Below are positions 2,083-28,681 of a DNA stretch of 32,092 nt, one piece after another. This stretch comes from an uncultured Clostridia bacterium (GTDB lineage: Bacteria; Bacillota; Clostridia; Oscillospirales; Ruminococcaceae): positions 1 through 32,092 of the forward strand of contig CAMCFA010000028.1 of assembly GCA_945873955.1 (NCBI GenBank), given 5' to 3'. The position numbers and the translations under genes were made by a program. The notes under the pieces are model-generated. The model made no database searches, was not told the DNA's origin, and was given only the letters and a program-made list of their open reading frames with translations. Position 1 is the stretch's first letter, and every line of letters starts with the position of its first letter.

Positions 2083-2862
2083 ATGAAAGTAGTACTACTC
2101 GCCGGCGGCCTCGGAACCAGGATATCAGAGGAGAGCGTGTACAAACCCAAGCCCATGATAGAAATAGGCGGAATGCCTATATTGTGGCATATAATGAAGG
2201 AGTATTCCTATTACGGGTTTAACGAATTCATCGTGTGCGCAGGCTACAAGCAGCACGTTATAAAGGAATGGTTTGCGGATTATTTTCTCCACACATCGGA
2301 TATCACCTTCGACTTTACAAAGGGCAACGATATCATCGTACATAATATGCACGCAGAACCGTGGAAGGTGACGGTGGTGGACACCGGTCTTAACACTATG
2401 ACGGGAGGCCGTATCAAGCGCATACAACCCTATATCGGAGACGAAACGTTTATGATGACATACGGCGACGGCGTGTGCGACGTAAATATAGCGGAGCTGG
2501 TGAAGTTCCATCAGTCCCACGGAAAAATCGCTACACTGACGGCTGTTATGCTGGAACAGCAGAAGGGCGTTCTTGATATAGGAGGAGATAATGCGGTGCA
2601 TTCCTTCCGTGAGAAGAGCACAGCAGACGGCGCGCCGATAAATGCAGGATATATGGTGCTCAGCCCCAGGATATTCGATTATATCGACGGCGATGATACC
2701 GTATTTGAGAAAAAGCCGCTGGAGGCTCTTGCGGCAGAGGGTGAGCTGATGTCCTATATGCACCGCGGTTTCTGGCAGTGCATGGATACAAAACGCGAAA
2801 TGGATATGCTTGAAAAACTGCTTTCCACCGGGCAGGCTCCCTGGAAAAAGTGGAACGACTGA
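2083..2862 (+). CDS. rfbF: Glucose-1-phosphate cytidylyltransferase
   Basis: Makes CDP-glucose from CTP and glucose-1-phosphate, the first step to CDP-3,6-dideoxyhexoses. The 259-residue product has the nucleotidyltransferase start VVLLAGGLGTR, followed by KPKPMIEIGG and YGDGV, which are hallmarks of RfbF. Its length matches the family (about 257). Start chosen at 2083 because GGAAAGGA lies 12 nt upstream and the family begins MKVV(I/L)LAGG; an in-frame ATG at 2071 abuts the ribosome site and the frame also extends further upstream. First gene of the operon, followed 19 nt later by rfbG. Confidence 0.95.
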   Translation: MKVVLLAGGLGTRISEESVYKPKPMIEIGGMPILWHIMKEYSYYGFNEFIVCAGYKQHVIKEWFADYFLHTSDITFDFTKGNDIIVHNMHAEPWKVTVVDTGLNTMTGGRIKRIQPYIGDETFMMTYGDGVCDVNIAELVKFHQSHGKIATLTAVMLEQQKGVLDIGGDNAVHSFREKSTADGAPINAGYMVLSPRIFDYIDGDDTVFEKKPLEALAAEGELMSYMHRGFWQCMDTKREMDMLEKLLSTGQAPWKKWND

Positions 2863-2881
2863 GAGCAGAGGAGCGATACTG

Positions 2882-3976
2882 ATGGAGCTGAAAGAATTCT
2901 ACGAAGGAAAAAAAGTGCTTGTAACAGGCCATACGGGCTTCAAGGGCTCCTGGCTCTGTAAGATTCTTGCGGGGTTTGGCGCAGAGGTGACGGGCTATTC
3001 CCTGACGCCGCCCAGCAATCCCTCGCTTTTTGAACTGGCGGATATAGAAAGGGATACCGATTCCGTTATCGGAGATATCAGGGATATCGAAAAGCTTAAG
3101 AGAGTATTTGAGGAAACACAGCCCGAAATCGTTCTCCACCTAGCGGCACAGCCTATCGTCCGCGAAAGCTATAAAAATCCCCTTGGGACCTACGAAACAA
3201 ATGTGATGGGCACGGCAAACATTCTGGAGTGCGTAAGGCTTAATAAATGCGTGAAATCTTTCCTGAATGTTACCACGGACAAGGTGTACCTTAACCGAGA
3301 ATGGGAGTGGGGCTACCGTGAAACCGACGAGTTGGACGGCTACGACCCTTATTCCAACTCGAAATCCTGCTCGGAGCTTGTTACCCATTCGTACAAAAAC
3401 AGCTTTTTCGCTGACGGAAGCACGGCGATTTCCACCGCCCGCGCAGGCAACGTAATCGGCGGAGGCGATTTTGCGGCGGACAGAATAATTCCGGACTGCA
3501 TAAGAGCAGTACAGAAGCATGAGGATATAATAGTGAGAAATCCTTTTTCAACGCGTCCCTATCAGCACGTCCTGGAGCCGCTGTTTGCCTATCTGATGAT
3601 AGCTGCAAAGCAGTACGAGGATATCTCCTTTGAGGGCTACTATAACGTGGGACCAGATGACAACTGCTGCTATGAAACCGGAAGACTGGTTGACTTGTTC
3701 GTCTCCAAGTGGGGAGAGGGCGCTAGGTGGATAAACAAATATGACGGCGGTCCACATGAAGCAAATTTCCTTAAGCTGGACTGCGCAAAGATAAAGACAA
3801 AATTCGGCTGGAAGCCCACATGGAACCTGGAAACCACCATGGAAAAGATTGTCGAATGGACTCGTCTGTACGCTGAGGGCGCTTCGACTGAGGAACTTAG
3901 GAGATGTATGGACAAGCAAATCTGCGAGTTTATGGAACAAATGGACAGAGTATCCGGAAAGGAATGTATGACATGA
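2882..3976 (+). CDS. rfbG: CDP-glucose 4,6-dehydratase
   Basis: Converts CDP-glucose to CDP-4-keto-6-deoxyglucose with bound NAD. The 364-residue extended SDR has the glycine motif TGHTGFKGSWL at residues about 15-25 (typical of this dehydratase), the catalytic TTDKVY segment, and the YxxxK pair Tyr157/Lys161 in PYSNSKSCSE. The start at 2882 has AGAGGAG 8 nt upstream. Its stop TGA overlaps the ATG of rfbH (ATGA), implying translational coupling. Residues such as RPYQHVLEPL agree with RfbG rather than a generic epimerase. Confidence 0.95.
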   Translation: MELKEFYEGKKVLVTGHTGFKGSWLCKILAGFGAEVTGYSLTPPSNPSLFELADIERDTDSVIGDIRDIEKLKRVFEETQPEIVLHLAAQPIVRESYKNPLGTYETNVMGTANILECVRLNKCVKSFLNVTTDKVYLNREWEWGYRETDELDGYDPYSNSKSCSELVTHSYKNSFFADGSTAISTARAGNVIGGGDFAADRIIPDCIRAVQKHEDIIVRNPFSTRPYQHVLEPLFAYLMIAAKQYEDISFEGYYNVGPDDNCCYETGRLVDLFVSKWGEGARWINKYDGGPHEANFLKLDCAKIKTKFGWKPTWNLETTMEKIVEWTRLYAEGASTEELRRCMDKQICEFMEQMDRVSGKECMT

Positions 3977-5313
3977 GCAAATGGAGCAATGAAACAGAGG
4001 CAAGAGAGCAGATAAAGGCTCTCGTTACCGACTACTACCATGATTTTAAGGAAAACAAGCTTCCCTTCCAGAAGGGCAGCAGAATAAGTTATGCTTCAAG
4101 AGTGTTTGATGAGAAGGAAATGTGCGCTCTCACCGACGCAATGCTGGATTTCTGGCTCACCACAGGCAGGTTTGCCGGGGAGTTTGAGAGAGAGTTTGCA
4201 AAGTGGATAGGAGTAAAGCACGCGTACCTTGTAAACAGCGGTTCTTCGGCTAATCTTATCGCATTTATGGCACTTACCGCACCCGAGTTGGGCGACAGAC
4301 AGATAAAGAGGGGCGACGAGGTTATCACAGTAGCATGCGGCTTCCCCACAACTGTCACACCCGTTCTTCAGTACGGCGCAGTGCCTGTTTTTGTTGATGT
4401 GACCGTACCTCAGTATAATATTGATGTAAACGCCCTTGAGGCGGCGCTCAGCGAAAAAACCAAGGCTGTCATGATTGCCCACACCCTCGGAAATCCCTTT
4501 AACCTTAAAGCAGTAAAGGAATTCTGCGAGAAGCATAACTTATGGCTCGTTGAGGACAACTGCGACGCGCTCGGCTCCCAGTACACCATAGACGGCGAGA
4601 CCCGCCATACGGGCACCTGGGGCGATATAGGAACATCAAGCTTCTACCCTCCCCACCACATGACCATGGGCGAGGGCGGCTGCGTTTATACAAATAACAG
4701 CAAGCTCTCCAGACTTATCCTCTCCTACCGCGACTGGGGAAGAGACTGCATCTGCCCCTCCGGACGGGATAATTTCTGCAACCACCGTTTCGACGGTCAG
4801 TACGGTGAGCTTCCCCATGGCTACGACCACAAGTATGTGTACAGCCATTTCGGATACAATCTCAAGGTTACGGATATGCAGGCGGCTATCGGCTGCGAGC
4901 AGTTGAAAAAGTTCCCCTCGTTCATCGAGCGCAGACGCCACAACCACGAACGGCTTCTGAAGGCTCTTGAATGCGTCAGCGACAAGCTTATTCTCCCCGT
5001 TCCCGCAGAGAACAGCCGCCCCTCCTGGTTCGGTTTCCTTATCTCCGTCAAGCCCGAATGCGGCAAAACCAGAAACGAGGTCACAAAGTACATCGAAAGC
5101 CACAACATTCAGACAAGGCTTCTGTTTTCAGGAAACCTCATAAAGCACCCCTGCTTCGACCAGATAAGAGGCACAGACGCCTACAGAGTATCGGGCAGCC
5201 TTGAGACAACGGATTATATTATGAACAACACCTTCTGGGTAGGCGTTTATCCCGGTATGACCGATGAGATGATTGACTATATGGCTGAGGTTATTATAGA
5301 GGCGTTAAAGTAA
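3973..5313 (+). CDS. rfbH: CDP-4-keto-6-deoxyglucose 3-dehydratase (E1, PMP/[2Fe-2S])
   Basis: Removes the C3 hydroxyl of CDP-4-keto-6-deoxyglucose, the step that makes 3,6-dideoxy sugars. The 446-residue protein is a DegT/AspC-fold enzyme in which the usual PLP lysine is replaced by histidine (His228 in SFYPPHHMTMGEGG), the diagnostic change of E1. The cysteines for the [2Fe-2S] cluster are present: Cys197, Cys259, Cys261 and Cys269 (C-X61-C-X1-C-X7-C; the Yersinia enzyme, from memory, has X57, and the difference is a small insertion near TIDGETRH). The start at 3973 overlaps the rfbG stop; another ATG at 3964 is possible. E1 needs an electron-transfer partner (RfbI/DdhD), which is not found in the window. 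Confidence 0.95.
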   Translation: MSKWSNETEAREQIKALVTDYYHDFKENKLPFQKGSRISYASRVFDEKEMCALTDAMLDFWLTTGRFAGEFEREFAKWIGVKHAYLVNSGSSANLIAFMALTAPELGDRQIKRGDEVITVACGFPTTVTPVLQYGAVPVFVDVTVPQYNIDVNALEAALSEKTKAVMIAHTLGNPFNLKAVKEFCEKHNLWLVEDNCDALGSQYTIDGETRHTGTWGDIGTSSFYPPHHMTMGEGGCVYTNNSKLSRLILSYRDWGRDCICPSGRDNFCNHRFDGQYGELPHGYDHKYVYSHFGYNLKVTDMQAAIGCEQLKKFPSFIERRRHNHERLLKALECVSDKLILPVPAENSRPSWFGFLISVKPECGKTRNEVTKYIESHNIQTRLLFSGNLIKHPCFDQIRGTDAYRVSGSLETTDYIMNNTFWVGVYPGMTDEMIDYMAEVIIEALK

Positions 5314-5340
5314 AATACTTTTTTAAGGAGAAAAATACAA

Positions 5341-6963
5341 ATGTCTGAAATACAGCTACTGGACTGTACACTGCGCGACGGCGGCTATATAAACGACTGG
5401 GAATTCGGTCACAATAATATTATTAGCATTATTGACCGACTGGAACAGGCAAAGGTTGATATAATCGAGATAGGATTTCTCGACGACAGACGTCCCTTTG
5501 ATATCAACAGGACAATTATGCCCGATACAGCTTCTGTAGGTAAGCTGCTGGGATGGCAGTCTCATTCCGCAATGATAGTGGGTATGATAGATTACGGAAC
5601 CTGTAGGATAGAAAATCTCCAGCCTGCGTCGGAATCCGTACTAGACGGAATACGCGTTATCTTTAAAAAACACCTTATGCACGAAGCAATGGAGTTCTGC
5701 GCACAGGTCAAGGCACTTGGCTACAAGGTGTTCTCCCAGCTTGTTTCCATAACAAGCTATAACGATGACGAGCTTATGGAGATAATCGGGCTGGTGAATA
5801 AGGTAAAGCCCTATGCAGTATCAATGGTAGACACCTACGGACTGCTTCACCCAGATGATATGCTGCATTATTACGAGATACTGGATGAGAATGTGGACAG
5901 CGAAGTGCAGATAGGCTTCCATGCCCACAACAATTTCCAGCTTGCTTACGCAAATGATATAGCATTCCTTAATAAGCCTGCCAAGCACAATATCGTAGTG
6001 GACGCAACGCTTTACGGCATGGGAAAAAGCGCAGGCAATTCACAGATAGAGCTGGTTTCCATGTATTTGAACGACAGGTTTGGAAAAGAATACAGAATAA
6101 ACTATCTGCTGGAGGCAATCGAGGAAACGATTATGGACCTCTACGACAAGTCTCCTTGGGGATATAAGATGTTCTTCTATCTTTGCTCCAAAAACCGCTG
6201 CCACCCGAATTATGTAAGCACCTTCCTCAAGAAAGAAAACCTCTCGGTATCAGACCTTGATAAGGTGCTCGACAGGATTGAGCCGGAGCCTAAAAAGCTT
6301 CTCTACGACCAGGAAATCGCTGACTCTTTATACGGCGAGTTTGAGCAAGAAATTGACGACGCAGAAGAATATGCAAAACTGTCGGTGGAACTGAAGGGAA
6401 GAAATATCCTTATTATCGGACCCGGAAAGAATGTGGAGCTTCAGCAGCAGACTATATCCGATTATATAAGCGCAAACAATCCTCTTATCATTTCTATAAA
6501 TTATATACCTAAGGCATTTAAGGTAGATTATGTTTTTGTTACAAACAAAAAGAGAAATCAGCAGATGACCGACAGCCTGAGGGAGCCGAAAAACTCGGAT
6601 ATCGGCATAATAGCCACCACTAATATCACGGCAGGCAGAATACCCTACAAGTACCACCTTAAGCTCTCGGAGCTTCTGGAAAAGGACAGCTTATACAGCG
6701 ACAACTCCTTTATTATGCTGATAAAAGTGCTGAGGAAATGCGGCGTCAAGAATGTAAGCTGCGCTGGACTCGACGGCTACTCAAATAAAGAGGATAACTA
6801 TGCTAACCCCAAAATGGAGTATTCCTTTATTAAGTCGCAGGCTGATTATCTGAATAAGATGATAAGAGCAGAGCTTTTTGAGAAGTATTCGGATATGAGA
6901 TTTGATTTTATAACCTATTCAAAGTATATGGAAAGCGAGGACTGCCACGATGCCGCGTTTTGA
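5341..6963 (+). CDS. DRE-TIM pyruvate aldolase with extra C-terminal domain
   Basis: A 540-residue protein. Residues 1 to about 310 form an HMGL-like/DRE-TIM barrel of the 4-hydroxy-2-oxovalerate aldolase kind: CTLRDGGY (Arg12-Asp13), metal-binding HAHNN (His194, His196) and DATLYGMGKSAGN. Such enzymes add or remove pyruvate enolate at an aldehyde through a divalent metal. Residues about 345-530 are a separate alpha/beta, Rossmann-like region beginning NILIIGPGKNVE, which I cannot name; it could be a partner-aldehyde or nucleotide-binding domain. It overlaps the next gene by 14 nt and sits inside a CDP-sugar operon, so the likely role is building a 2-oxo-acid side chain. Direction of reaction and substrate are inferred. 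Confidence 0.8.
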   Translation: MSEIQLLDCTLRDGGYINDWEFGHNNIISIIDRLEQAKVDIIEIGFLDDRRPFDINRTIMPDTASVGKLLGWQSHSAMIVGMIDYGTCRIENLQPASESVLDGIRVIFKKHLMHEAMEFCAQVKALGYKVFSQLVSITSYNDDELMEIIGLVNKVKPYAVSMVDTYGLLHPDDMLHYYEILDENVDSEVQIGFHAHNNFQLAYANDIAFLNKPAKHNIVVDATLYGMGKSAGNSQIELVSMYLNDRFGKEYRINYLLEAIEETIMDLYDKSPWGYKMFFYLCSKNRCHPNYVSTFLKKENLSVSDLDKVLDRIEPEPKKLLYDQEIADSLYGEFEQEIDDAEEYAKLSVELKGRNILIIGPGKNVELQQQTISDYISANNPLIISINYIPKAFKVDYVFVTNKKRNQQMTDSLREPKNSDIGIIATTNITAGRIPYKYHLKLSELLEKDSLYSDNSFIMLIKVLRKCGVKNVSCAGLDGYSNKEDNYANPKMEYSFIKSQADYLNKMIRAELFEKYSDMRFDFITYSKYMESEDCHDAAF

Positions 6964-7600
6964 GCTGGCTGTTTTTGATGTGGACGGCACCCTCCTTGAT
7001 ACCACAGAGGGCGTTCTTTCCTCCGTTAAATATACCATAGACAGGTTCGGATTTGAGCCGCTGAGTCAGGAAAAACTGAAAAAATTCATCGGCCCCCCGA
7101 TACAGAATTCCTTCGCCTCGGCTTACGGGCTTTCGGGAGACATTCTCCAGGAAATCGCAGGAGTATTCAGAGACAGATATAAGAACGACGACCTCTTAAA
7201 AGCCGTGCCTTATGAGGGAATATACGACGCCATGAAGTGGCTTTCGGACAATAATGTAAAAATCGCCATCGCAACATATAAGCGGCAGGATTATGCGGAA
7301 AAAATCCTGAGAGCATTCAGGTTTGACAGATTTACGGATATCATGTACGGCGCAGACCACGAAAACAAACTGAAAAAGCGCGACATTATTGAAAAGTGCA
7401 TTGCTGATTCCGGAGTGACAGACTATTCCCGGGTTGTTATGATAGGAGACAGCGATAACGACGCAATAGGCGCGCGGGATATAGGCGTTAATTTTATTGC
7501 AGTAACGTACGGCTTCGGATTTGACAGCGCACAGGACGCTATGGGTTTTCCGAATGTGGGAATTGCGTCCTGCCCCGATGAACTGAAGAATTATTTCTGA
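6950..7600 (+). CDS. HAD-superfamily phosphatase (phosphoglycolate-phosphatase-like)
   Basis: A 216-residue soluble HAD hydrolase. Motif I is DVDGTLLD with nucleophile Asp10 and acid Asp12; the cap follows at about 17-85; motif II is IAIATYK; the motif III lysine is in KLKKRD; motif IV is GDSDND (166-171). It begins inside the aldolase gene (14-nt overlap, GCGAGG 9 nt upstream), so the two are probably produced together. The simplest reading is removal of a phosphate from the aldolase product or its precursor before the ThDP enzyme acts. Substrate is not visible from sequence. Confidence 0.85.
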   Translation: MPRFELAVFDVDGTLLDTTEGVLSSVKYTIDRFGFEPLSQEKLKKFIGPPIQNSFASAYGLSGDILQEIAGVFRDRYKNDDLLKAVPYEGIYDAMKWLSDNNVKIAIATYKRQDYAEKILRAFRFDRFTDIMYGADHENKLKKRDIIEKCIADSGVTDYSRVVMIGDSDNDAIGARDIGVNFIAVTYGFGFDSAQDAMGFPNVGIASCPDELKNYF

Positions 7601-7655
7601 ATGCCAGGCGCTTTAGGGAATGTATGGCTAAAATCCAACGAAAGGGAAAATGGGA

Positions 7656-9464
7656 ATGAAAATCAAACTTGCCAAATATGTATCTGAGTTTATGGTGAAA
7701 AACGGAATAAAGGACGTTTTTACCGTTACAGGCGGCGGAGCAATGCACCTGAACGACGCAATCGGACATCAGGATGGTCTGCACTCCACCTATAATCATC
7801 ACGAGCAGGCCTGCGCCATAGCTGCCGAGGGATATGCGCGTATATCCAACGAAATCGCTCTGGTATGCGTTACCAGTGGTCCGGGAGGAACAAATGCCAT
7901 AACAGGAGTACTTGGAGGCTGGCTTGATTCCATTCCCATGTTTATAATCTCCGGTCAGGTAAAGCGTGAGACAACCTTGTGGAGCACCGATTTACCGTTA
8001 AGACAGCTAGGCGACCAGGAATACAATATCATTGATTCTGTCAGACCTATGACCAAGTATGCAGTCATGGTGACAGACCCCTTATCAATAAGATATCACC
8101 TTGAGAAAGCGTTGTACCTTGCCAAAAACGGACGTCCCGGACCCGTGTGGCTGGATATCCCCCTTGACGTCCAGGCGGCTGTTATAGAAACCGATGATCT
8201 AAAACCCTTTGACAGCACCGAATGTGACCTGATTGAAAACCCAGGATATAACGAGGAGCTTACTTCCACCATACTTAGAAAAATAAAGGAAGCAAAGCGA
8301 CCGGTTATCCTTGCGGGAACGGGAATACGCTTGGCAGACGCCTACGAGGAATTCCTGGAATGCGTGGACAAACTGCATATCCCCGTGGTCACCGCCTGGA
8401 ACAATCACGACCTTCTCTGGAACGACCACCCCTGTTTCTGCGGAAAGCCCGGAACCGTGGGCACAAGAGGTGGAAACTTTGTGGTATCAAACTGCGATCT
8501 GCTGATAACACTTGGCTGTAGAATGAACATAAGAATTATCAGCTATAATAAGCTGGGCTTTGCTAAGGACGCATATAAAATAATGGTGGATATCGACGAA
8601 AACGAGCTGAAAAAGCCCACCATAAAAATAGATATGCCGATACACGCAAATGTCAGGGATGTTCTTAAATCAATAAACAGGTCTGATTATCAGGCAGACA
8701 GCGCCGACCATAAAAGATGGCTGGAATGGTGCAAAAGCATTGACGCAAAATACCCTGCAACCCGCCCGGAGTTTTATGACGATGCAGAGTACATGAACCC
8801 CTACGCATTTATGAGCGAGGCATTTAAGGCTTTTGAGGAAGATGAAAAAATCGTATGTGGAAACGGATCTGCCTGCGTTATGTCTTTTCAGGCTGCCGAA
8901 ACCAAAAGGGGTCAGCGACTCTTTACAAACTCGGGATGCGCGGCAATGGGTTATGGCTTCCCCGCTGCTGTGGGCGTGTGCGTTCAGCAGAATGGCAAAA
9001 GAGTTGTCTGCATCGACGGCGACGGAAGCTTTCAGATGAATATTCAGGAGCTTCAGACAGTGGTCTATAACAACCTGAATATGAAGATAATTTACCTAAA
9101 TAATAACGGATATCATTCAATCAGACAGACCCAGACAAATCTCTTCAAAGGACAGCCACTGGTGGGCGTTTGTGTGGGAAATGGTCTGAGCTTCCCAGAC
9201 ACGGAGAAGATTGCCTACGCATACGGTATTCCATTTGTGCGCATAACCGATATAAAAACAGCCAGAGCGCAGATTGAGAGCATACTTAAAACCGACGGTC
9301 CCGTTATGTGCGAGGCGGTAGTTGACCCGCACCAGAATTTTGAGCCGAAGCTGTCGTCTAAGGTGCTTGAGGACGGAAGGATTGTGTCTCCCGATTTGGA
9401 CGATATGTTCCCGTTCCTTCCTAAAGAAGAATACGAACAGAACAAAAGAATAGATTTGATTTGA
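7656..9464 (+). CDS. ThDP-dependent enzyme, acetolactate synthase-like (YerE-type candidate)
   Basis: A 602-residue three-domain thiamine diphosphate enzyme: N-terminal PYR domain with the catalytic Glu50 (HHEQACAIAAEG), a central domain at about 190-330, and a C-terminal PP domain with the ThDP/Mg motif GDGS (455-458) ending in NN about 27 residues later. Next to rfbFGH this matches the idea of YerE, which transfers a decarboxylated 2-oxo acid (acetyl from pyruvate) to C4 of CDP-4-keto-3,6-dideoxyglucose in yersiniose synthesis. Here the donor may be the aldolase product. The start at 7656 gives proper spacing from AAAGGGA; ATG 7650 is too close. A housekeeping acetolactate synthase is less likely because no ilvN or ilvC neighbours occur. 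Confidence 0.8.
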   Translation: MKIKLAKYVSEFMVKNGIKDVFTVTGGGAMHLNDAIGHQDGLHSTYNHHEQACAIAAEGYARISNEIALVCVTSGPGGTNAITGVLGGWLDSIPMFIISGQVKRETTLWSTDLPLRQLGDQEYNIIDSVRPMTKYAVMVTDPLSIRYHLEKALYLAKNGRPGPVWLDIPLDVQAAVIETDDLKPFDSTECDLIENPGYNEELTSTILRKIKEAKRPVILAGTGIRLADAYEEFLECVDKLHIPVVTAWNNHDLLWNDHPCFCGKPGTVGTRGGNFVVSNCDLLITLGCRMNIRIISYNKLGFAKDAYKIMVDIDENELKKPTIKIDMPIHANVRDVLKSINRSDYQADSADHKRWLEWCKSIDAKYPATRPEFYDDAEYMNPYAFMSEAFKAFEEDEKIVCGNGSACVMSFQAAETKRGQRLFTNSGCAAMGYGFPAAVGVCVQQNGKRVVCIDGDGSFQMNIQELQTVVYNNLNMKIIYLNNNGYHSIRQTQTNLFKGQPLVGVCVGNGLSFPDTEKIAYAYGIPFVRITDIKTARAQIESILKTDGPVMCEAVVDPHQNFEPKLSSKVLEDGRIVSPDLDDMFPFLPKEEYEQNKRIDLI

Positions 9465-9480
9465 GCTTGGAGTAACAAAT

Positions 9481-10389
9481 ATGAAAACTGCCGTAATCAC
9501 CGGTCCCACCGGAGCCATAGGTACAGCCCTCTGCGCGAAGCTGATAAAAGAGGGCGTAAAGGTATACGCCGTATGCCGGAGAGACAGTACCAGAACAGAC
9601 AGGCTGCCTGAGGGTGCAGAGCTGGTCTTCTGTGGTCTTGACGAGCTTTCGGAGCTTTCCGGAAAAATCGACCATGCAGATGTGTTCTATCACTTCGCCT
9701 GGGCACACACAATAGGCGCAGGGCGAAACGATATGTATTCCCAAACGGATAACATAAGATATACCCTTGACGCCGTAAAAGCGGCAAAGGCGCTGGGCTG
9801 CGAGTGCTTCGTGGGCGCAGGCAGTCAGGCAGAATACGGGCGTCACAGTGGGCCGCTTACGCCCGATACACCCTGTTTCCCGGAGAACGGCTACGGTATG
9901 GCAAAGCTCTGCGCAGGTCAGATGAGCAGAGAAATGTGCGGCGAGTACGGAATACGCCATGTGTGGGCGCGTATACTAAGCGTATATGGACCCTACGACG
10001 GGGAAAAAACGATGATTACTTCCGTTATCCGCTCACTGCTGAACGGAGAGGAACCCCCTCTCACAGAGGGCGGTCAGATGTGGGACTACCTTTTCTCCGG
10101 TGACGCCGCAGAGGCGCTTTATCTTATGTGGTTAAAAGGTAAAAACGGTTCTGTGTACCCTTTGGGAAGCGGAACGGTAAGATCCCTTAGAGAATATATC
10201 GAAATCCTGCGGGACGCTATTGACCCTAGCCTTACGCTTGGCTTCGGAAAAATACCCTACGGCAAGCGTCAGGTAATGTACCTCGGCGCGGATATGTCAA
10301 AAGTGTCGGAGGATTTGGGATTTAAACCCTCCCGCAGCTTTGAGGACGGCATAAAAGCCACTATAGATTACATAAAAGCAAACAGGTGA
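9481..10389 (+). CDS. NAD(P)-dependent epimerase/dehydratase-family reductase
   Basis: A 302-residue extended SDR. The Rossmann motif is GPTGAIG at about residues 8-14; the catalytic pair is Tyr138/Lys142 in GYGMAK; SVYGPYDGE and the C-terminal GFKPSRSFEDGI are typical of nucleotide-sugar SDRs. It directly follows the ThDP enzyme (GGAG 8 nt before the ATG). A reductase such as YerF would be expected there to reduce the keto group of the newly attached side chain or C4. Epimerase or 4-ketoreductase action on CDP-4-keto-3,6-dideoxyglucose is an alternative. The next gene begins within 3 nt of its stop. Confidence 0.8.
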   Translation: MKTAVITGPTGAIGTALCAKLIKEGVKVYAVCRRDSTRTDRLPEGAELVFCGLDELSELSGKIDHADVFYHFAWAHTIGAGRNDMYSQTDNIRYTLDAVKAAKALGCECFVGAGSQAEYGRHSGPLTPDTPCFPENGYGMAKLCAGQMSREMCGEYGIRHVWARILSVYGPYDGEKTMITSVIRSLLNGEEPPLTEGGQMWDYLFSGDAAEALYLMWLKGKNGSVYPLGSGTVRSLREYIEILRDAIDPSLTLGFGKIPYGKRQVMYLGADMSKVSEDLGFKPSRSFEDGIKATIDYIKANR

Positions 10390-10391
10390 TT

Positions 10392-11348
10392 ATGATGAAG
10401 AAAATTAGCGTTATGGTTCCCACATACAATGAGGAGGAAAATGTAGTTCCTCTTTCTGAGGCAATCATTGAACAGCTTGAAGCGCTGCCCCAGTATGATT
10501 ATGAGCTTGTTTTTATAGACAACGACTCCAAGGACTCAACACGGGAAAAGCTTGAAATGCTCTGTAAGGGCAATCCTAAGATAAAGGCAATATTCAACGC
10601 AAAGAATTTCGGGCAGTTCAATTCTCCCTTTTATGGAATGCTCCAGACAACCGGCGACTGCACAATATGTATGTGCGCAGATTTTCAGGACCCCGTGGAA
10701 ATGATACCCAGGTTTATCCATGAATGGGAAGAGGGCTATAAGATAGTAACAGGTATAAAAACCACCAGCAAGGAAAACCCTATAATGCGGTTTTTGCGCA
10801 CCTGCTATTACAAGGTAATCAAAAAGATGTCCGACGTTGAGCAGATAGAGCATTTCACCGGTTTCGGACTGTATGACAAATCCTTTATAAATGTTCTGCG
10901 AGAACTTGATGACCCAATGCCTTTTTTGCGTGGAATTGTTGCTGAGCTGGGATTCAGACGAAAGGATTTGCCATATGAGCAGCAGAAAAGGCGCGCCGGA
11001 AAAACCAGCAACAACTGGTATCGCCTGTATGACGCCGCTATGCTGAGTTTCACGTCATATACAAAGGTGGGAATGCGCATTGCGACAATAATAGGGTTTA
11101 TTATCGCGTTTTTCAGCATTGCAATAGGTTTTGTATATCTTGTGCTGAAACTTATCTATTGGGACAGTTTCGCAATGGGCAATGCGCCAATGCTCATAGG
11201 AATGTTTATGCTGGGCGGAATACAGCTTTTCTTCATCGGTCTGCTGGGCGAATATGTGCTGAACATTAACTCAAGAATGATGAAGCGCCCCCTTGTGATA
11301 GAAGAACGCAGACTGAATTTTGAGGAGAAAACTCCGATTAAATTATAG
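10392..11348 (+). CDS. GT2 polyprenyl-phosphate glycosyltransferase (DPM1/GtrB-like)
   Basis: A 318-residue family-2 glycosyltransferase that probably charges undecaprenyl phosphate with a sugar on the cytosolic face. It has VPTYNEEENV at the start, the ADFQDP metal/nucleotide motif near residue 97, and two C-terminal membrane helices (about 235-260 and 270-295). This is the layout of GtrB and bacterial dolichol-phosphate-mannose-synthase relatives. Start at ATG 10392 (10395 also possible; a GTG at 10386 overlaps the previous stop). Its natural partners in the locus are the GtrA-like protein at 25178 and the GT-C proteins at 22889 and 25655. Donor could be any nucleotide sugar made here. Confidence 0.88.
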   Translation: MMKKISVMVPTYNEEENVVPLSEAIIEQLEALPQYDYELVFIDNDSKDSTREKLEMLCKGNPKIKAIFNAKNFGQFNSPFYGMLQTTGDCTICMCADFQDPVEMIPRFIHEWEEGYKIVTGIKTTSKENPIMRFLRTCYYKVIKKMSDVEQIEHFTGFGLYDKSFINVLRELDDPMPFLRGIVAELGFRRKDLPYEQQKRRAGKTSNNWYRLYDAAMLSFTSYTKVGMRIATIIGFIIAFFSIAIGFVYLVLKLIYWDSFAMGNAPMLIGMFMLGGIQLFFIGLLGEYVLNINSRMMKRPLVIEERRLNFEEKTPIKL

Positions 11349-14736: not shown

Positions 14737-15699
14737 ATGAAAGCATTGATAATCGGTGCGGGCGGCTTTGTGGGCGGATACCTTATCAGCGAGCTTTGCT
14801 CAGGAGAATGGGAAGTATGCGCCACAAAGCTCCCCCATGAAAGAATTAGCATATTCAGCGGCAGAGAGGTTTCATACAGCACGGCAGATTTAGATATACT
14901 GGACGAAAACGCCATAAGAGAAGTGCTGAACAGCTATAAGCCGGACTGCATTTTTCATCTTGCGGCACAAAGCTCAGTAGCTCTCTCCTGGAAAAAACCC
15001 GCCCTTACTGCGGACATCAACATCAAGGGGTGCATAAATCTCCTTGAGGCTGTCAGAACCGCGGAACTTTCCCCGAGGATTCTTTTCATAGGCTCAAGCG
15101 AGGAATACGGCTATGCCGCCAACCGTCCCGAGCCTGTGGACGAGACGGTAAAACCCGAGCCGGCAAACATTTACGCAATAACAAAACTCACCCAGAATAT
15201 GATAGGGGAGCTTTACTGTAAGGCATACGGTATGGATATCATATCCGTGAGAGCTTTCAATCACATAGGCCCCGGTCAGCTTCCGCAGTTCGTTGTGGCT
15301 GATTTCTGCAAACAGGCAGCCGAGATATCCATGGGTAAGCGTGAGCCTGTTATATATGTGGGGAACCTTTCCGCGAAGCGGGATTTCACCGATGTGCGGG
15401 ATATAGTAAGGGCTTACGCCATGCTGTCCGAAAAGGGAAAAAGCGGAGAAACCTACAACGTGGGCAGCGGACGCGCTGTAACAATACAGTCCGTGCTTCT
15501 TAAAATAATAGAGCTGTCGGGTGCGGAGATAAGGGTGGAAACAGACAAGGAGCGCTTTCGCCCCGTTGACGTGCCCTTTATCGAGGCAGATGTGACAAAG
15601 CTGAAAAAAGATACGGGCTGGGAGCCGAAAATAGGACTGACAACAGCGCTCAGCAGTATTATCGAATACTGGAGGAGCTGTCCGGAGATAAAAAAATGA
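14737..15699 (+). CDS. rmd: GDP-6-deoxy-4-keto-D-mannose reductase (GDP-D-rhamnose synthesis)
   Basis: A 320-residue extended SDR with GAGGFVGGYL at the N-terminus, GSSEEYG, catalytic Tyr146/Lys150 (IYAITKL), and SVRAFNHIGPGQ, RDFTDVRDIVRAY. This pattern fits Rmd, which reduces the Gmd product to GDP-D-rhamnose, rather than GDP-fucose synthase, whose N-terminus and length differ. It lies 15 nt after gmd and overlaps wzm by ATGA. The manC-gmd-rmd-wzm-wzt order recalls D-rhamnan (A-band/common antigen, S-layer glycan) loci. A 4-epimerising reductase giving GDP-6-deoxytalose is the alternative. Confidence 0.85.
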   Translation: MKALIIGAGGFVGGYLISELCSGEWEVCATKLPHERISIFSGREVSYSTADLDILDENAIREVLNSYKPDCIFHLAAQSSVALSWKKPALTADINIKGCINLLEAVRTAELSPRILFIGSSEEYGYAANRPEPVDETVKPEPANIYAITKLTQNMIGELYCKAYGMDIISVRAFNHIGPGQLPQFVVADFCKQAAEISMGKREPVIYVGNLSAKRDFTDVRDIVRAYAMLSEKGKSGETYNVGSGRAVTIQSVLLKIIELSGAEIRVETDKERFRPVDVPFIEADVTKLKKDTGWEPKIGLTTALSSIIEYWRSCPEIKK

Positions 15700-16475
15700 C
15701 TGTGTTTCGAGAACTGATAAACTACCGCCAGATGATAGTGAGCCTTGTAAAGAAGGACCTTCGGGGAAGGTATAAAGGCTCTGTGCTGGGATTTCTGTGG
15801 ACCTTTATAAATCCGCTGCTGCAATTGGCGGTCTACTCCATAGTGTTCTCCACCATAATGAGAGTGGTGGATACCGATAAATATTACCTGTTTCTTTTCG
15901 TGGCTCTGATACCATGGATATTCTTTTCCTCCTCGGTGTCGGGCGGAGCTGGCTCTATCCTTGCTAATAAGGATATGGTCACAAAGATTTACTTTCCGCG
16001 AGAGGTTTTGCCGATAGCATATGTTACAAGCTGCTTTGTAAATATGCTTTTTTGCTTTATAGTGATATTTGCGGTGCTTATCATCTCGGGAACAGGCATA
16101 AATCCCGTAGCCCTGCTTTATCTTCCTGTTGTAATGATAACAGAGTATGTTCTCGCCCTCGGAATAACCATGATAACGTCCTCTGTGACGGTTTTTTTCA
16201 GAGACTTGGAGCATATTCTCGGAATAGTCATGATGGCATGGATGTACCTTACCCCCATAATGTACACGCCGGATATGGTACCCGAACAATTCAGGACGCT
16301 GTTTGAGCTTAACCCTATGTGCAGTATTATCGTTGCATACAGGGATATTCTGTACTACAAGCAGACACCTGATATGACCTCGGTTCTATGCTCGGCAGCT
16401 ATAGGGATAATTATGCTCGCGGCAGGCTTTATAATATTCGGGCGGTTAAAGAAAAGATTTGCGGAATCATTGTGA
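15696..16475 (+). CDS. wzm: ABC-2 polysaccharide exporter, membrane subunit
   Basis: A 259-residue integral membrane protein with about six helices. The conserved cytoplasmic N-terminus KKDLRGRYKGSVLGFLW is typical of Wzm/TagG/RfbA-type permeases. It would dimerise and pair with Wzt to export a lipid-linked glycan that has been fully polymerised inside the cell. The start overlaps the rmd stop by 4 nt, and the stop is followed by wzt after 29 nt (or overlapped, if wzt starts at GTG 16472). Confidence 0.93.
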   Translation: MTVFRELINYRQMIVSLVKKDLRGRYKGSVLGFLWTFINPLLQLAVYSIVFSTIMRVVDTDKYYLFLFVALIPWIFFSSSVSGGAGSILANKDMVTKIYFPREVLPIAYVTSCFVNMLFCFIVIFAVLIISGTGINPVALLYLPVVMITEYVLALGITMITSSVTVFFRDLEHILGIVMMAWMYLTPIMYTPDMVPEQFRTLFELNPMCSIIVAYRDILYYKQTPDMTSVLCSAAIGIIMLAAGFIIFGRLKKRFAESL

Positions 16476-16504
16476 TTCCTCCGACAGAGGAAAAGAGTGA
16501 AGGA

Positions 16505-25094: not shown

Positions 25095-25177
25095 ATACAA
25101 CGGTGGCGAAAAAAGCCGATAAGCAGGACAATATGTCGGCGCATCGCGCCTTAATATCTCGAAAAAGGATTGAAACG

Positions 25178-25651
25178 ATGAAGTCATTAGTGCAGTTTAT
25201 AAAATTCGGCATAGTGGGAATATCCAATACGCTGATTTCACAATTGATATATATGTTCTTTGTCTGGCTCGGCGCTCACTATCTGGTTGCCAGCGTGATC
25301 GGGTTTATCGTCAGCGTACTTAATGCCTTTTTCTGGCAGAACAGGGTGGTATTTAAAGAGGACAAAGATAAGGAGCACAGAGTGTGGTGGCAGGTGCTGC
25401 TGAAAACCTACGCCGCCTACGCCTTTACGGGTCTGCTGCTGAATAACCTTCTGCTGATAATGTGGATAGACCTGATAAAGATTGAGCAGTTCACCCCGCC
25501 TCTCACCGGGTTTATAAACGGTCTCGGTATTAATATATACAACTACGATCTTGCTGTTGACCTCGCCCCCATACTTAATATCTTTGTAAACGTCCCAATC
25601 AATTTCGTTATTAATAAATTCTGGGCTTATAGGCAGAAAGGAGAAAAATGA
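25178..25651 (+). CDS. GtrA-family membrane protein (putative glycolipid flippase)
   Basis: A 157-residue protein with four predicted helices and the GtrA opening LVQFIKFGIVGISNTLISQL, later SVLNAFFWQNRVVF and the end NFVINKFWAYR, both typical of the family. GtrA proteins are thought to flip undecaprenyl-phosphate-linked sugars made by GtrB. The start at ATG 25178 has AAAAAGGA 8 nt upstream; an upstream in-frame GTG at 25103 lies on the transcription start and is rejected. Its stop is 3 nt from the next start. The GtrB-like partner is 14 kb upstream in the same locus. Confidence 0.92.
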   Translation: MKSLVQFIKFGIVGISNTLISQLIYMFFVWLGAHYLVASVIGFIVSVLNAFFWQNRVVFKEDKDKEHRVWWQVLLKTYAAYAFTGLLLNNLLLIMWIDLIKIEQFTPPLTGFINGLGINIYNYDLAVDLAPILNIFVNVPINFVINKFWAYRQKGEK

Positions 25652-25654
25652 CAG

Positions 25655-28600
25655 ATGTCCGAACTGAAAAACAAGGTCGTCAGGACAGTTACATACTGGT
25701 ACAAAGTGACCGTTAGACGATTTAAGCAACAGCCCGTGCCTTTCATATTCTGCTCGTGTTTGCTCATTGCAACAACAGCGGCGCTTGTTATGGGATACCT
25801 AACACGTGGGCGCAGTATTGAGAATATGTTGTTCTTTAATCGTGGCGACACATTCATGGACTTTTTCAACAGCATACAGTATGGGCGCAAACCCTATGAA
25901 AATGGCGTAATTTACCCGCCTCTTATGAACGCCATTTATAGCTTTTTCGGTCATTTTATCCCTGAAAGCATTCTGGTAGACCAGGGCACCGTTTTTACAA
26001 GAGAATATCAGCTGGGCAAAGTAGTTTTTTTTACATATATGCTGGTTTCGCTGGTGTTATTTGTGCTGATAATCTGCAAGGTTTACAGCAAGGATAAGAG
26101 AGAGTCTATGGCATTTGCGCTTATTGTAATTTTCTCTCTGCCGTTTTTCTTTTGCATCGAAAGAGGAAACTCTATTCTGCTTTGCACAGATTTTCTGCTG
26201 ATGTTCTATTACGGCTATCGCTCTGAGGATAAACTGACGAGAAATCTTGCGCTTATCTGCCTTGCGATTGCCACGTCAATGAAGATATATGTCGTCTGTT
26301 TCGGACTGCTGCTGCTGCGTGAAAAAAGATACAAGGACGCTATTGTGTGCTGCATCTACGGCGCTCTTGTATTCTTTGTTCCGTTCCTCCTGTTTGCAGA
26401 GGGTAACAGAAGCGTGTTTGTCCTTATACACAATATTCTCAATGCGTCAAACGAGTTCTCCTTCGACCATTACGGGTATAAACTCAATATCTCCAGCATA
26501 ACCGATATCTTTGTCAGGATAACTAACCTTGACTTTACCGTATTGAACCTGCCTTTGATGGTGCTGTCATTGATACCTTTAGCATACGGCTTTTTCTCAA
26601 AGAACTTTGAGAGATGGAAGGTTTCTTGTCTGTTGTGTATGTGCATGATAATGCTTCCCTCATTCAGTTATACATATATGCTGATGTTCCTAATCGTGCC
26701 GTTGCTCGACTTTCTGGATTATTCGCGCAAGCAGAAAACACTTACCGTCTGGGACGTGTTGTATCTCATCTGCTTTATACTTTTGTTCATACCATTCTCC
26801 CTTCAGGATAACGGAACGCTTTCGATTTTTGAATCCGTACACAGCCGGCTTACTTGGACTACTATCCTGGAGTACATCGTTTTTTATGCCCTATGGCTGA
26901 TTTTATGTATAGAAAGTGTGGTCAGGATAATGAAAAATAATGGTATTACTAAGTGTATCCTTTCAATAATTCCTTTTGTGTGCGTGATTGCGCTTATAGG
27001 GGTGCAGTTCTGCAACTTGAAAGAATACGAGTGGCCCAGAGAATCTTCTGTAGGTATGTCCATAAGAGAAAACGATGAGTTGTATACACAGATATCCGAG
27101 CAGGTATTTAATGCGGTCGGAGAAAAATTCACAACGCAGGATACTGTTTTCTGTTTCCCGACTGTCCCGGAATTTATCGCCGATACCGAGCAGGAAGATC
27201 CCGACAAGGTTGAGGAAATAAACAATATCATGGCAAACTGGAAGTCTCCGAGCGATTTTGAGAGTCTTCTGGCAGAGCCCGAACAGATAAAGGCGCTTAA
27301 GCCAAAGTATATCCTGATTAACGATAAACTGGTATATGAAAATGCTTCGTATAGCGAACTGTTAGGGAAGATATACGATCTGGGATATTTATGCGATTAT
27401 AAAAACCTGGGCGTTTTTTCAGGCGAACAATCCACTAACTTCCAGGTTTGGATTCTTAATTCCGAGAACGAATCCACTCTCTTTACATATGACGGCGGAA
27501 CGGAGAGTAAACCATATGTCATAAAATCAGTCGTTGATTTTCAGGAGTTTGGAAAGAAAGTAAACAACGGATGGAACTTCATTGGAAGATATATCAGGCT
27601 GAACAACGACATTGATTTGAGTAATGCAGAATGGACGCCGATAGGCATCATTGAAAAGGGTTATGCTTTCAGCGGACATTTTAACGGAAACGGTTACGCT
27701 GTGAAAAATCTGAAGATTTCCAAGTCACAGCGCTTGAATAACGCCGCTTTGTTCGGCTTTATGAACGGCGCGGTATATAATCTTGACCTTGTTGGCGGTG
27801 AGGTGAACGGAAAGAACAGCGCTTCTATTGTCGGCTGCAGCACCACAGATAAGGCAATTCTGGTCAACTGTTCCGCTAGCACAACCATAAACGGAGATGA
27901 CTGCGGCACATTTGCATATGTTTTTCAAGGAAGAATAGAAAACTGCATCTTTTCAGGCAGGCTGAACGGCAAGAAAAGCGAATCTGTGATTTCCGAGTCC
28001 TCAGGCGCAGTGCTTTTCAACAATTATTTCGTTGATAATGAGTTTGAGTTGGAAAACGAGGATATGTCCGAACACGACCAGCGCATTTACAAGGCAAAGT
28101 TTTATAACGAGCGTTTCGGGATTGCGCCCTACTCCGAGGATGAATATAATATCAAGGGATACAGCAACTTCTTTGTGAATACCAGTATTATTGAGTCTCA
28201 GGAATTTGTCGAAACCTTTAACGAAACACTTCTTTCCAGCAGTTATGCTTATATGCATCTGAATAAATATCAGTACGACAGCAGGAATGCGCTGCTAGGT
28301 CATACCACCGAGTGGGAATACGTCATTCCGAACGATAAAATTTATTTCACCCAGGGCAGTGAAACAGATGACATTGACCCTGATGTTATATCCAGCCTTG
28401 TTGCATACCCGAACTCCATTCAGTATGGACCATACTACCCTCTGGAAAAGGGTACCTATGTGGTAACTTATGAAGGCGAGGGCTTGGCACAGGCCAAATT
28501 CGACGCATACTCCAACTCCGATGAGAAAAACTTCGCCGTAAAGAAAATCCAGCAAAAGAATGAACTGATAGAGTATCAGTGTACGATTGACGAAGATGTA

Positions 28601-28681
28601 CAGGATATTGAGTTCAGGCTGTTTAACGAGTCGGCCGATGTGATACTTATTGACAAGGTTACTTTATCGCATATCGGGTGA
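25655..28681 (+). CDS. GT87-like GT-C glycosyltransferase fused to GLUG-like and C-terminal beta modules
   Basis: A 1008-residue protein. Residues about 20-450 contain roughly ten membrane helices with the GT87-like sequence RGDTFMDFFN, YENGVIYPPLMN and ATSMKIYVV, as in PimE/DUF2029 polyprenyl-phosphate-sugar mannosyltransferases. Residues 450-610 are a soluble extracytoplasmic domain. Residues about 612-810 form a GLUG-like right-handed beta-helix stretch (DIDLSNAEWTPIG, FSGHFNGNGYAVKNLKI). Residues about 890-1008 carry the beta module also present in the 720-residue protein (SIQYGPYYPLEKGTYVV ... EFRLFNESADVI). AAAGGAG lies 11 nt before the ATG. It probably glycosylates the exported glycan with the sugar flipped by GtrA; the appended modules could hold the substrate polymer. 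Family placement is by motif only. Confidence 0.75.
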   Translation: MSELKNKVVRTVTYWYKVTVRRFKQQPVPFIFCSCLLIATTAALVMGYLTRGRSIENMLFFNRGDTFMDFFNSIQYGRKPYENGVIYPPLMNAIYSFFGHFIPESILVDQGTVFTREYQLGKVVFFTYMLVSLVLFVLIICKVYSKDKRESMAFALIVIFSLPFFFCIERGNSILLCTDFLLMFYYGYRSEDKLTRNLALICLAIATSMKIYVVCFGLLLLREKRYKDAIVCCIYGALVFFVPFLLFAEGNRSVFVLIHNILNASNEFSFDHYGYKLNISSITDIFVRITNLDFTVLNLPLMVLSLIPLAYGFFSKNFERWKVSCLLCMCMIMLPSFSYTYMLMFLIVPLLDFLDYSRKQKTLTVWDVLYLICFILLFIPFSLQDNGTLSIFESVHSRLTWTTILEYIVFYALWLILCIESVVRIMKNNGITKCILSIIPFVCVIALIGVQFCNLKEYEWPRESSVGMSIRENDELYTQISEQVFNAVGEKFTTQDTVFCFPTVPEFIADTEQEDPDKVEEINNIMANWKSPSDFESLLAEPEQIKALKPKYILINDKLVYENASYSELLGKIYDLGYLCDYKNLGVFSGEQSTNFQVWILNSENESTLFTYDGGTESKPYVIKSVVDFQEFGKKVNNGWNFIGRYIRLNNDIDLSNAEWTPIGIIEKGYAFSGHFNGNGYAVKNLKISKSQRLNNAALFGFMNGAVYNLDLVGGEVNGKNSASIVGCSTTDKAILVNCSASTTINGDDCGTFAYVFQGRIENCIFSGRLNGKKSESVISESSGAVLFNNYFVDNEFELENEDMSEHDQRIYKAKFYNERFGIAPYSEDEYNIKGYSNFFVNTSIIESQEFVETFNETLLSSSYAYMHLNKYQYDSRNALLGHTTEWEYVIPNDKIYFTQGSETDDIDPDVISSLVAYPNSIQYGPYYPLEKGTYVVTYEGEGLAQAKFDAYSNSDEKNFAVKKIQQKNELIEYQCTIDEDVQDIEFRLFNESADVILIDKVTLSHIG

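Follow-up and report, generated by a model that had tools for sequence, protein, structure and literature searches.

What sugar is made by a gene cluster in which the enzymes for cytidine diphosphate (CDP)-4-keto-3,6-dideoxyglucose are followed by a pyruvate aldolase, a phosphatase and a thiamine diphosphate (ThDP)-dependent carboligase? This question is raised by a 32,092-nucleotide stretch of DNA (hereafter the window) from an uncultured Clostridia bacterium of the Ruminococcaceae (contig CAMCFA010000028.1 of assembly GCA_945873955.1), part of a 3.47-Mb genome that is 99.68% complete. The unit concerned comprises seven genes, all on the plus strand at 2083-10389, with a glycosyltransferase family 2 (GT2) gene as an eighth directly after them. 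An earlier note on this DNA proposed that the aldolase and phosphatase supply a longer 4-hydroxy-2-oxo acid, which the ThDP enzyme decarboxylates and adds to C4 of the sugar, and comparative genomics supports this interpretation. Whichever aldehyde is used, the product of the cassette is quite probably a 3,6-dideoxyhexose whose C4 bears a long polyhydroxyalkyl branch; the chemical steps, the aldehyde, the chain length and the final sugar are all inferred from gene content, gene order, conservation and partner exchanges.

The seven genes named in the earlier note are all present, with domain or profile matches for each. The unit opens with rfbF (glucose-1-phosphate cytidylyltransferase; 2083..2862; TIGR02623, 372 bits, cutoff 300), rfbG (CDP-glucose 4,6-dehydratase; 2882..3976; TIGR02622, 442 bits, cutoff 278) and rfbH (CDP-4-keto-6-deoxyglucose 3-dehydrase; 3973..5313; NF011936, 711 bits, cutoff 423). 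The open reading frame (ORF) of rfbG begins with a TTG at 2810, but its match to the profile sets in only at residue 30, preceded by an ATG at 2882, while the rfbH frame opens at 3904 and its probable start is the ATG at 3973, overlapping the rfbG stop. Between rfbH and the ThDP gene, as the coordinates confirm, stand a 540-aa DRE-TIM pyruvate-aldolase homologue (5341..6963; Pfam HMGL-like, E 1.4e-26), a proposed 3-deoxy-2-ulosonate(-phosphate) synthase, and a HAD-superfamily phosphatase (6950..7600; HAD_2, E 2.2e-33) whose start at 6950 lies 14 nt inside the aldolase gene, again as first noted. They are followed by a YerE-like ThDP-dependent carboligase (7650..9464; TPP_enzyme N, M and C domains), an extended short-chain dehydrogenase/reductase (SDR; 9481..10389; Epimerase family, E 2e-37) proposed to fill the YerF role of branch-ketone reductase, and the GtrB-like GT2 (10386..11348), proposed to transfer the sugar from CDP to undecaprenyl phosphate.

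RfbF, RfbG and RfbH make CDP-4-keto-3,6-dideoxyglucose, and in the proposed route they would provide this acceptor. From pyruvate and an aldose phosphate, the aldolase would form a 3-deoxy-2-ulosonate phosphate by condensation, and the HAD enzyme would remove its phosphate. The YerE-like enzyme would then decarboxylate the ulosonic acid and pass the remaining acyl chain to the C4 ketone of the CDP-sugar, the SDR would reduce the new branch ketone, and the GtrB-like enzyme would move the finished sugar onto undecaprenyl phosphate for use in an exported cell-wall glycan.

This route depends on the identity of the ThDP enzyme, and the earlier note named a true acetolactate synthase as a finding that would refute it. 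The protein carries all three TPP domains, a catalytic Glu within HHEQ and the ThDP motif GDG...N in the form IDGDGSFQMN. The chance that it is a genuine acetolactate synthase is negligible: TIGR00118, the model for that enzyme, is its best NCBIfam match (352 bits), but this score is far under the cutoff of 538, and acetolactate synthase proper is encoded twice elsewhere in the host genome, complete with small subunits (large subunits 715 and 642 bits), a search of that genome finding no small subunit on the window's contig. The best solved-structure match is JanthE (8rph, 378 bits), against 230 bits for the acetolactate synthase 6lpi and only 231 bits for 5ahk, which we take to be the pyruvate-using PpYerE. 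In an alignment of 13 relatives and four acetolactate synthases, a C-terminal tail of the type PKxxS...DG...LEDMxPFL is present in most YerE-like relatives and absent from all four synthases. The Lys of the PK pair is invariant in an eight-sequence alignment and apparently corresponds to K567 of JanthE, as placed by counting to within one residue; K567 lies near the active-site cleft (PMC12188165). The acetolactate synthase identity was rejected for the sub-cutoff score, the greater nearness to 8rph and the two genuine synthases elsewhere, and by its sequence the enzyme classes as YerE-like. In searches for plasmid carriage, the ThDP query matched only two acetolactate synthases at E 1e-70, and of nine records with a match to the aldolase at E 1e-15, none reached 80% query coverage.

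Whether the unit is conserved was asked of loci found by scanning genome contigs with the tail region, the best 80 of at least 573 confirmed stretches being retained and their ORFs labelled by BLAST against the window's genes and a few others. By NCBI rank these loci (given below as L numbers) belong to Bacillota, Bacteroidota, Spirochaetota, Actinomycetota and Kiritimatiellota, with five unranked. When unlabelled ORFs and GT87 genes are skipped, aldolase, HAD and ThDP genes are consecutive in 45 of the 80 (Bacillota, Bacteroidota, Actinomycetota and Kiritimatiellota, and four unranked), and the complete order rfbF-rfbG-rfbH-aldolase-HAD-ThDP-SDR-GT2 occurs in 13; in two Treponema loci the orders differ. 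The SDR gene lies close to the ThDP gene in many relatives, and the GT2 lies near the ThDP gene at more than 250 bits in 52 of the 80, mostly at about 65-75% identity, so that this eighth gene belongs to the unit. Where the contig extends 4 kb or more upstream and 2.5 kb or more downstream (59 loci), at least one of rfbF, rfbG and rfbH is found in 49 and all three in 34.

An aldolase label was obtained in 72 of the 80 loci: 70 at 100 bits or more, one 81-residue fragment at a contig end (L113) and one distant protein (L131). A shorter, 349-residue aldolase with 32% identity occurs in L114, where the upstream side is cut. An HpcH/HpaI-type aldolase is present in L103, L118, L126 and L151, none of which has a DRE-TIM gene, and the contigs of L108, L116, L140 and L148, which carry no aldolase label, end near the ThDP gene. 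In 49 loci the sequence reaches 6.5 kb or more to either side of the ThDP gene; the cassette aldolase is present in 45 of them and HpcH in three, and the remaining one is L131. As controls, the same labelling was applied to 20 loci of acetolactate synthases from the same phylum, chosen at 32-36% identity; they contain no cassette aldolase above 100 bits and no rfbFGH, HAD, HpcH or AroB-like gene, and the aldolase-query matches in 15 of them reach at most 58 bits and are probably LeuA-like. The exact 14-nt overlap of aldolase and HAD genes recurs in seven of 42 measurable pairs, and an overlap of any length in 18, with starts guessed as the nearest ATG. The eight-gene linkage is a conserved unit rather than a product of chance. 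The co-occurrence that the earlier note asked to have checked is thus borne out, and its second refuting condition, aldolase and HAD genes unlinked to rfbFGH in all relatives, does not apply, since they are linked in many.

The aldolase itself departs from characterized relatives. Pfam HMGL-like covers only residues 4-246, and the second half (about residues 339-540; 6355..6960), defined by conservation among cassette aldolases, forms a domain in which certain Asn, Arg, Asp and Gly positions are invariant and which matched no known family, profile searches giving weak MptE-like and SteA-like matches only. Residues R12, D13, H194 and H196 align with 4-hydroxy-2-oxovalerate aldolase (1nvm), where we take their counterparts to be catalytic or metal-binding (Arg, Asp and the HxH pair), and none of the four varies among 35 aligned sequences. 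Because the protein scores 86.6 bits against the DmpG family model TIGR03217, below its cutoff of 286, and has Tyr16 in place of the His that follows RDG in DmpG, it is assigned to a subfamily different from the DmpG 4-hydroxy-2-oxovalerate aldolases.

Its product may be read from its partners. Three loci of the window's genus and phylum that have the aldolase and lack the ThDP gene (L028, L029 and L032) were asked in advance for a gene of cytidine monophosphate (CMP)-ulosonate synthesis, and all three have a PF02348 cytidylyltransferase directly upstream of the aldolase; two pass KdsB cutoffs, and the third is PseF-like and below cutoff. A search centred on the aldolase was positive in 26 of 391 genomes of the class, the host's own included, and gave 27 places, or 26 loci besides the window. 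A ThDP partner was counted if it scored at least 330 bits and lay on the same strand no more than 6.5 kb away. By this measure, 11 of these loci have the ThDP gene only (five of them, L242, L243, L244, L245 and L252, already among the 80 ThDP loci) and 14 the cytidylyltransferase only; no locus has both, and L256, whose contig is 8.8 kb long, has neither. Since the partner is either a ThDP gene or a CMP-ulosonate cytidylyltransferase and never both, the product of the aldolase family is probably a 3-deoxy-2-ulosonic acid that is CMP-activated or used as a ThDP acyl donor, and the alternative partner supports the earlier suggestion of a 4-hydroxy-2-oxo acid product. In L032 (340-3706) and L251, the aldolase stands between a cytidylyltransferase (KdsB-like and PseF-like, respectively) and a PfkB protein resembling 2-keto-3-deoxygluconate (KDG) kinase, an arrangement that hints at an aldolase-made CMP-ulosonate.

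The phosphatase gene, too, has alternatives. A HAD gene lies near the ThDP gene in 55 of the 80 loci, and in eight others its place is taken by an SDR and an AroB-like gene, which in five of the eight lie between the aldolase and ThDP genes, where the HAD gene usually stands. None of the 80 has both HAD and AroB-like genes; strict exclusion of the two was nevertheless set aside, as it is broken by L069, a locus outside the 80. Named strains represent the types: Murimonas intestini DSM 26524 (L095, its record flagged UNVERIFIED_CONTAM) the HAD type and Desulfosporosinus metallidurans OL (L097) the AroB type, while Megasphaera paucivorans DSM 16981 (L098) has neither. Of the AroB-like proteins, those encoded in L097 and L117 score above the cutoff of NCBIfam TIGR04425 ('AroB-related putative sugar phosphate phospholyase (cyclizing)'); that of L156 does not. 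The L097 protein keeps the regions of 3-dehydroquinate synthase 3clh around the putative catalytic Lys, Glu and His, as we presume these to be placed. On a tree of 59 aldolases, the seven AroB-type rows need six changes, at least three of them forced by well-supported branches, whereas shuffled labels average 6.8. The HAD gene and the AroB-like pair thus seem to have replaced one another repeatedly within a single aldolase family, which fits two ways of removing one terminal phosphate. The aldolase is exchanged as well: in L190 it is HpcH that accompanies the SDR and AroB-like genes, and L072, with a more distant ThDP relative, has a true 3-deoxy-D-arabino-heptulosonate 7-phosphate (DAHP) synthase (373 bits, cutoff 335) together with a HAD gene, a set also found by homology in L076. 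Three unrelated enzymes making, or potentially making, 3-deoxy-2-oxo acids thus stand beside such ThDP genes.

Because relatives use a DAHP synthase or an AroB-like phospholyase in similar clusters, both of which point to seven-carbon acids, the favoured aldehyde is D-erythrose 4-phosphate, which would lead to a twelve-carbon, caryophyllose-like sugar; this choice is tentative and is held with confidence well below even. Two branch centres of caryophyllose would agree with D-erythrose on our own reading of its D-altro descriptor. The HAD enzyme would leave the chain end as CH2OH by hydrolysis, and the AroB-like and SDR pair could leave it as CH3, the AroB-like enzyme eliminating phosphate without ring closure; this second ending is the boldest part of the proposal. 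Extended to a modular system, in which a DRE-TIM enzyme, HpcH or DAHP synthase would make a seven-carbon 3-deoxy-2-ulosonate 7-phosphate, a second module would set the chain end and the ThDP enzyme would join the chain to a CDP-linked or, in L031, guanosine diphosphate (GDP)-linked 4-keto-3,6-dideoxy sugar, the reading assigns caryophyllose to the AroB-like clusters and its 10-hydroxy analogue to the window. In this full form it is unlikely, and we know of no such twelve-carbon 10-hydroxy analogue of caryophyllose.

Several observations weigh against the route as drawn. The 80 loci were picked for similarity and are related to each other, so that their counts are not independent, and the alternation of ThDP and CMP partners amounts to three changes on a tree of 92 aldolases, so that those counts reflect few independent events. 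Seven HAD assignments out of 55 are weak matches of 22-28% identity, 17 of the 80 loci have neither a HAD gene nor the AroB-like replacement (in eight of these, one side is shorter than 6.5 kb), and L069 has both. The DRE-TIM protein of L131, at 20% identity and 50 bits, is no better than the controls, which reach 58. No HAD gene lies near the nearest aldolase relatives, L246, L125 (the same contig as L245) and L115, which implies another phosphatase there or an acceptor that is unphosphorylated there. Finally, Tyr16 replaces a His that presumably matters in DmpG, and the acceptor chemistry may differ.

The same route could operate with glyceraldehyde 3-phosphate (a five-carbon branch), with a pentose phosphate (a seven-carbon branch) or with unphosphorylated acetaldehyde or lactaldehyde (an erwiniose-like branch), and these aldehydes taken together are a serious possibility, a little short of an even chance. 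The absence of HAD beside the nearest aldolase relatives and the KDG-kinase-like gene adjoining the aldolase in L032 and L251 speak for them, as do the KdsB-family partners, since enzymes of that family act on eight-carbon 3-deoxy-D-manno-oct-2-ulosonic acid (KDO); the DAHP synthase and AroB-like partners, with their seven-carbon acids, and the frequency of HAD near the ThDP gene speak against them. It is very improbable that the aldolase and HAD instead make a separate CMP-activated ulosonic acid of the same glycan and that their adjacency to the ThDP gene is accidental. In other clusters, the aldolase family is indeed coupled to a cytidylyltransferase of KdsB- or PseF-like type, but no match to such an enzyme was found within the window, the two kinds of partner never meet in the 26 aldolase-centred loci, and a cytidylyltransferase match occurs in only two of the 80 ThDP loci, where it is weak (26-27% identity).

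A rather less remote alternative, though still improbable, is that the ThDP enzyme uses pyruvate itself and forms a two-carbon branch as in yersiniose, leaving the aldolase and HAD to produce some small metabolite unconnected with the sugar. YerE uses pyruvate (PMC12247030), and clusters of this kind seem to exist, L186 having rfbFGH, SDR, GT2 and ThDP genes with no recognised aldolase, but 75 of the 76 uncut ThDP loci carry a pyruvate-aldolase-type gene (70 DRE-TIM, one fragment and four HpcH) and the remaining one a distant DRE-TIM gene, while the control loci show distant aldolase matches only. The window's ThDP sequence is also nearer JanthE than 5ahk, the presumed pyruvate user. The long C4 branch made from an aldolase-derived acid remains the preferred reading.

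The fate of the sugar may be judged from the host envelope and the neighbouring genes. No LpxC match was found in the near-complete host genome by a search that was positive in four of 14 control genomes, E. coli included; the host is for this reason probably monoderm and the product a cell-wall glycan rather than lipopolysaccharide (LPS). An LPS O-antigen was set aside as the product in this host on the same grounds. The GT2 is nearest to sll0501 (5eke, 164 bits), which we take to be GtrB, and to ArnC (109 bits), and hydropathy gives it two C-terminal hydrophobic segments. Of the relatives with such a GT2, 46 are covered for 3 kb past that gene, and 29 of these have a protein with at least seven hydrophobic segments within 7 kb downstream. 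The remainder of the window is a glycan cluster including ManC-like, Gmd-like, Wzm-like, Wzt-like, GtrA-like and GT87 genes, some of these names being our own assignments from Pfam families. The Wzm-like and Wzt-like genes (15696-16475 and 16388-17788, plus strand; PF01061, PF00005, PF14524) encode an ABC glycan exporter whose Wzt_C domain suggests a cell-wall glycan. Farther downstream on the plus strand are a GtrA-like membrane protein, tentatively a lipid-linked-sugar flippase (25103..25651; PF04138, E 2e-20), and a GT87/GT-C type glycosyltransferase with about 10 hydrophobic segments by hydropathy, tentatively an external transferase (25655..28681; PF09594, E 1.1e-9), which together could complete external transfer. 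Near these two genes, a 720-aa protein (22889-25051) with about nine hydrophobic segments and no Pfam match is possibly another GT-C enzyme.

Other gene sets around such ThDP genes and aldolases were observed in the course of the survey. In L072 (8286-11694) and L076 (1532-4900), the HAD and DAHP synthase genes stand with a ribulose-phosphate-epimerase-like gene with CBS domains and an RraA-like aldolase beside the YerE-like ThDP gene, and this set is another donor module. In L031 (4707-14645; of the window's genus), Gmd, RfbH-family, Fcl-like, SDR, YerE-like ThDP, aldolase, split transketolase and ManC-like genes occur together; the RfbH-family protein is below the RfbH cutoff and is presumably ColD-like, and the locus suggests that aldolase and ThDP enzyme are coupled in the same way on a 4-keto-3,6-dideoxy sugar linked to GDP. 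In L031, L033 (6077-13783) and L267, the aldolase is followed by transketolase genes split into N and C halves. A 680-aa aldolase fused to a weak GT2 domain is found in L030 with rfbFGH and two split transketolases, and no YerE-like ThDP gene was seen there in the 20 kb examined. A xylose-isomerase-like TIM barrel lies near the YerE-like ThDP genes of L074 (9496-10347; PF01261), L073 and L071 (BLAST kin, weakly in L071), near which no cassette aldolase was seen.

The cassette offers a gene-level route, with testable enzymes, to the donor acids of longer-branched sugars. It allows predictions of which among the many YerE-like clusters produce long branches and of the alternative parts that govern the length and end of the chain, and its aldolase is likely a new type of 3-deoxy-ulosonate synthase, feeding CMP-ulosonates or ThDP chemistry. 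Longer-branched sugars, known from LPS and mycobacterial glycolipids, are thereby placed on a Bacillota-type genome without an lpxC match and in the many gut and rumen bacteria that carry such loci. That longer 2-oxo acids serve as donors for ThDP enzymes is a general idea already published for ErwE and MMAR_2332, and section 2.1 of the same paper names no biosynthetic source of the longer-branch donor acids (PMC12247030). No description of the aldolase-HAD cassette, of the HpcH or DAHP synthase substitutions, of the AroB-like swap or of the alternation of CMP and ThDP partners was found in the searchable literature, outside which most subscription papers lie. This gene route with interchangeable parts looks new.

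Among known systems, the yersiniose A route of YerE and its SDR, YerF, resembles the window in its CDP-4-keto-3,6-dideoxyglucose, its YerE-like ThDP enzyme and its SDR; its donor is pyruvate, however, and it needs no aldolase or phosphatase, unlike the window's cassette. The KDO route (KdsA, KdsC and KdsB) likewise gains a 3-deoxy-2-ulosonic acid from a synthase and a phosphatase, and the window's aldolase family adjoins KdsB-like enzymes in other clusters, but the synthase families differ and the acid in the window is proposed to be an acyl donor rather than CMP-activated. Bradyrhizose was set aside as a model, its genes being called unknown in the part of PMC4743980 that was available. JanthE (8rph), the closest solved relative of the ThDP enzyme, takes long and hydroxylated substrates, accepting 2-oxo acids from pyruvate up to 4-methyl-2-oxovalerate, and 4-hydroxy-2-oxovalerate with benzaldehyde; as far as the available text goes, its physiological substrates are not identified (PMC12188165). 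It has a CDG motif (PMC12247030), whereas the window's protein has the usual GDG.

The nearest parallels are erwiniose and caryophyllose. ErwE of Pectobacterium atrosepticum joins a hydroxylated 2-oxo acid to CDP-4-keto-3,6-dideoxyglucose, as shown, according to the review, in vitro with a substrate analogue, and prefers 4-hydroxy-2-oxo acids over pyruvate, MMAR_2332 of the caryophyllose route in Mycobacterium marinum being similar (PMC12247030). The erwiniose route and the window have in common a YerE-like ThDP enzyme and the CDP-sugar, and the shared donor type is only proposed for the window, which differs in its aldolase-HAD pair and its probable monoderm host. Caryophyllose is 3,6-dideoxy-4-C-(D-altro-1,3,4,5-tetrahydroxyhexyl)-D-xylo-hexose (PMC5706390), and its six-carbon branch formally needs a seven-carbon 3,7-dideoxy-hept-2-ulosonate donor. 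Its chain ends in CH3, whereas the HAD enzyme of the window would leave CH2OH.

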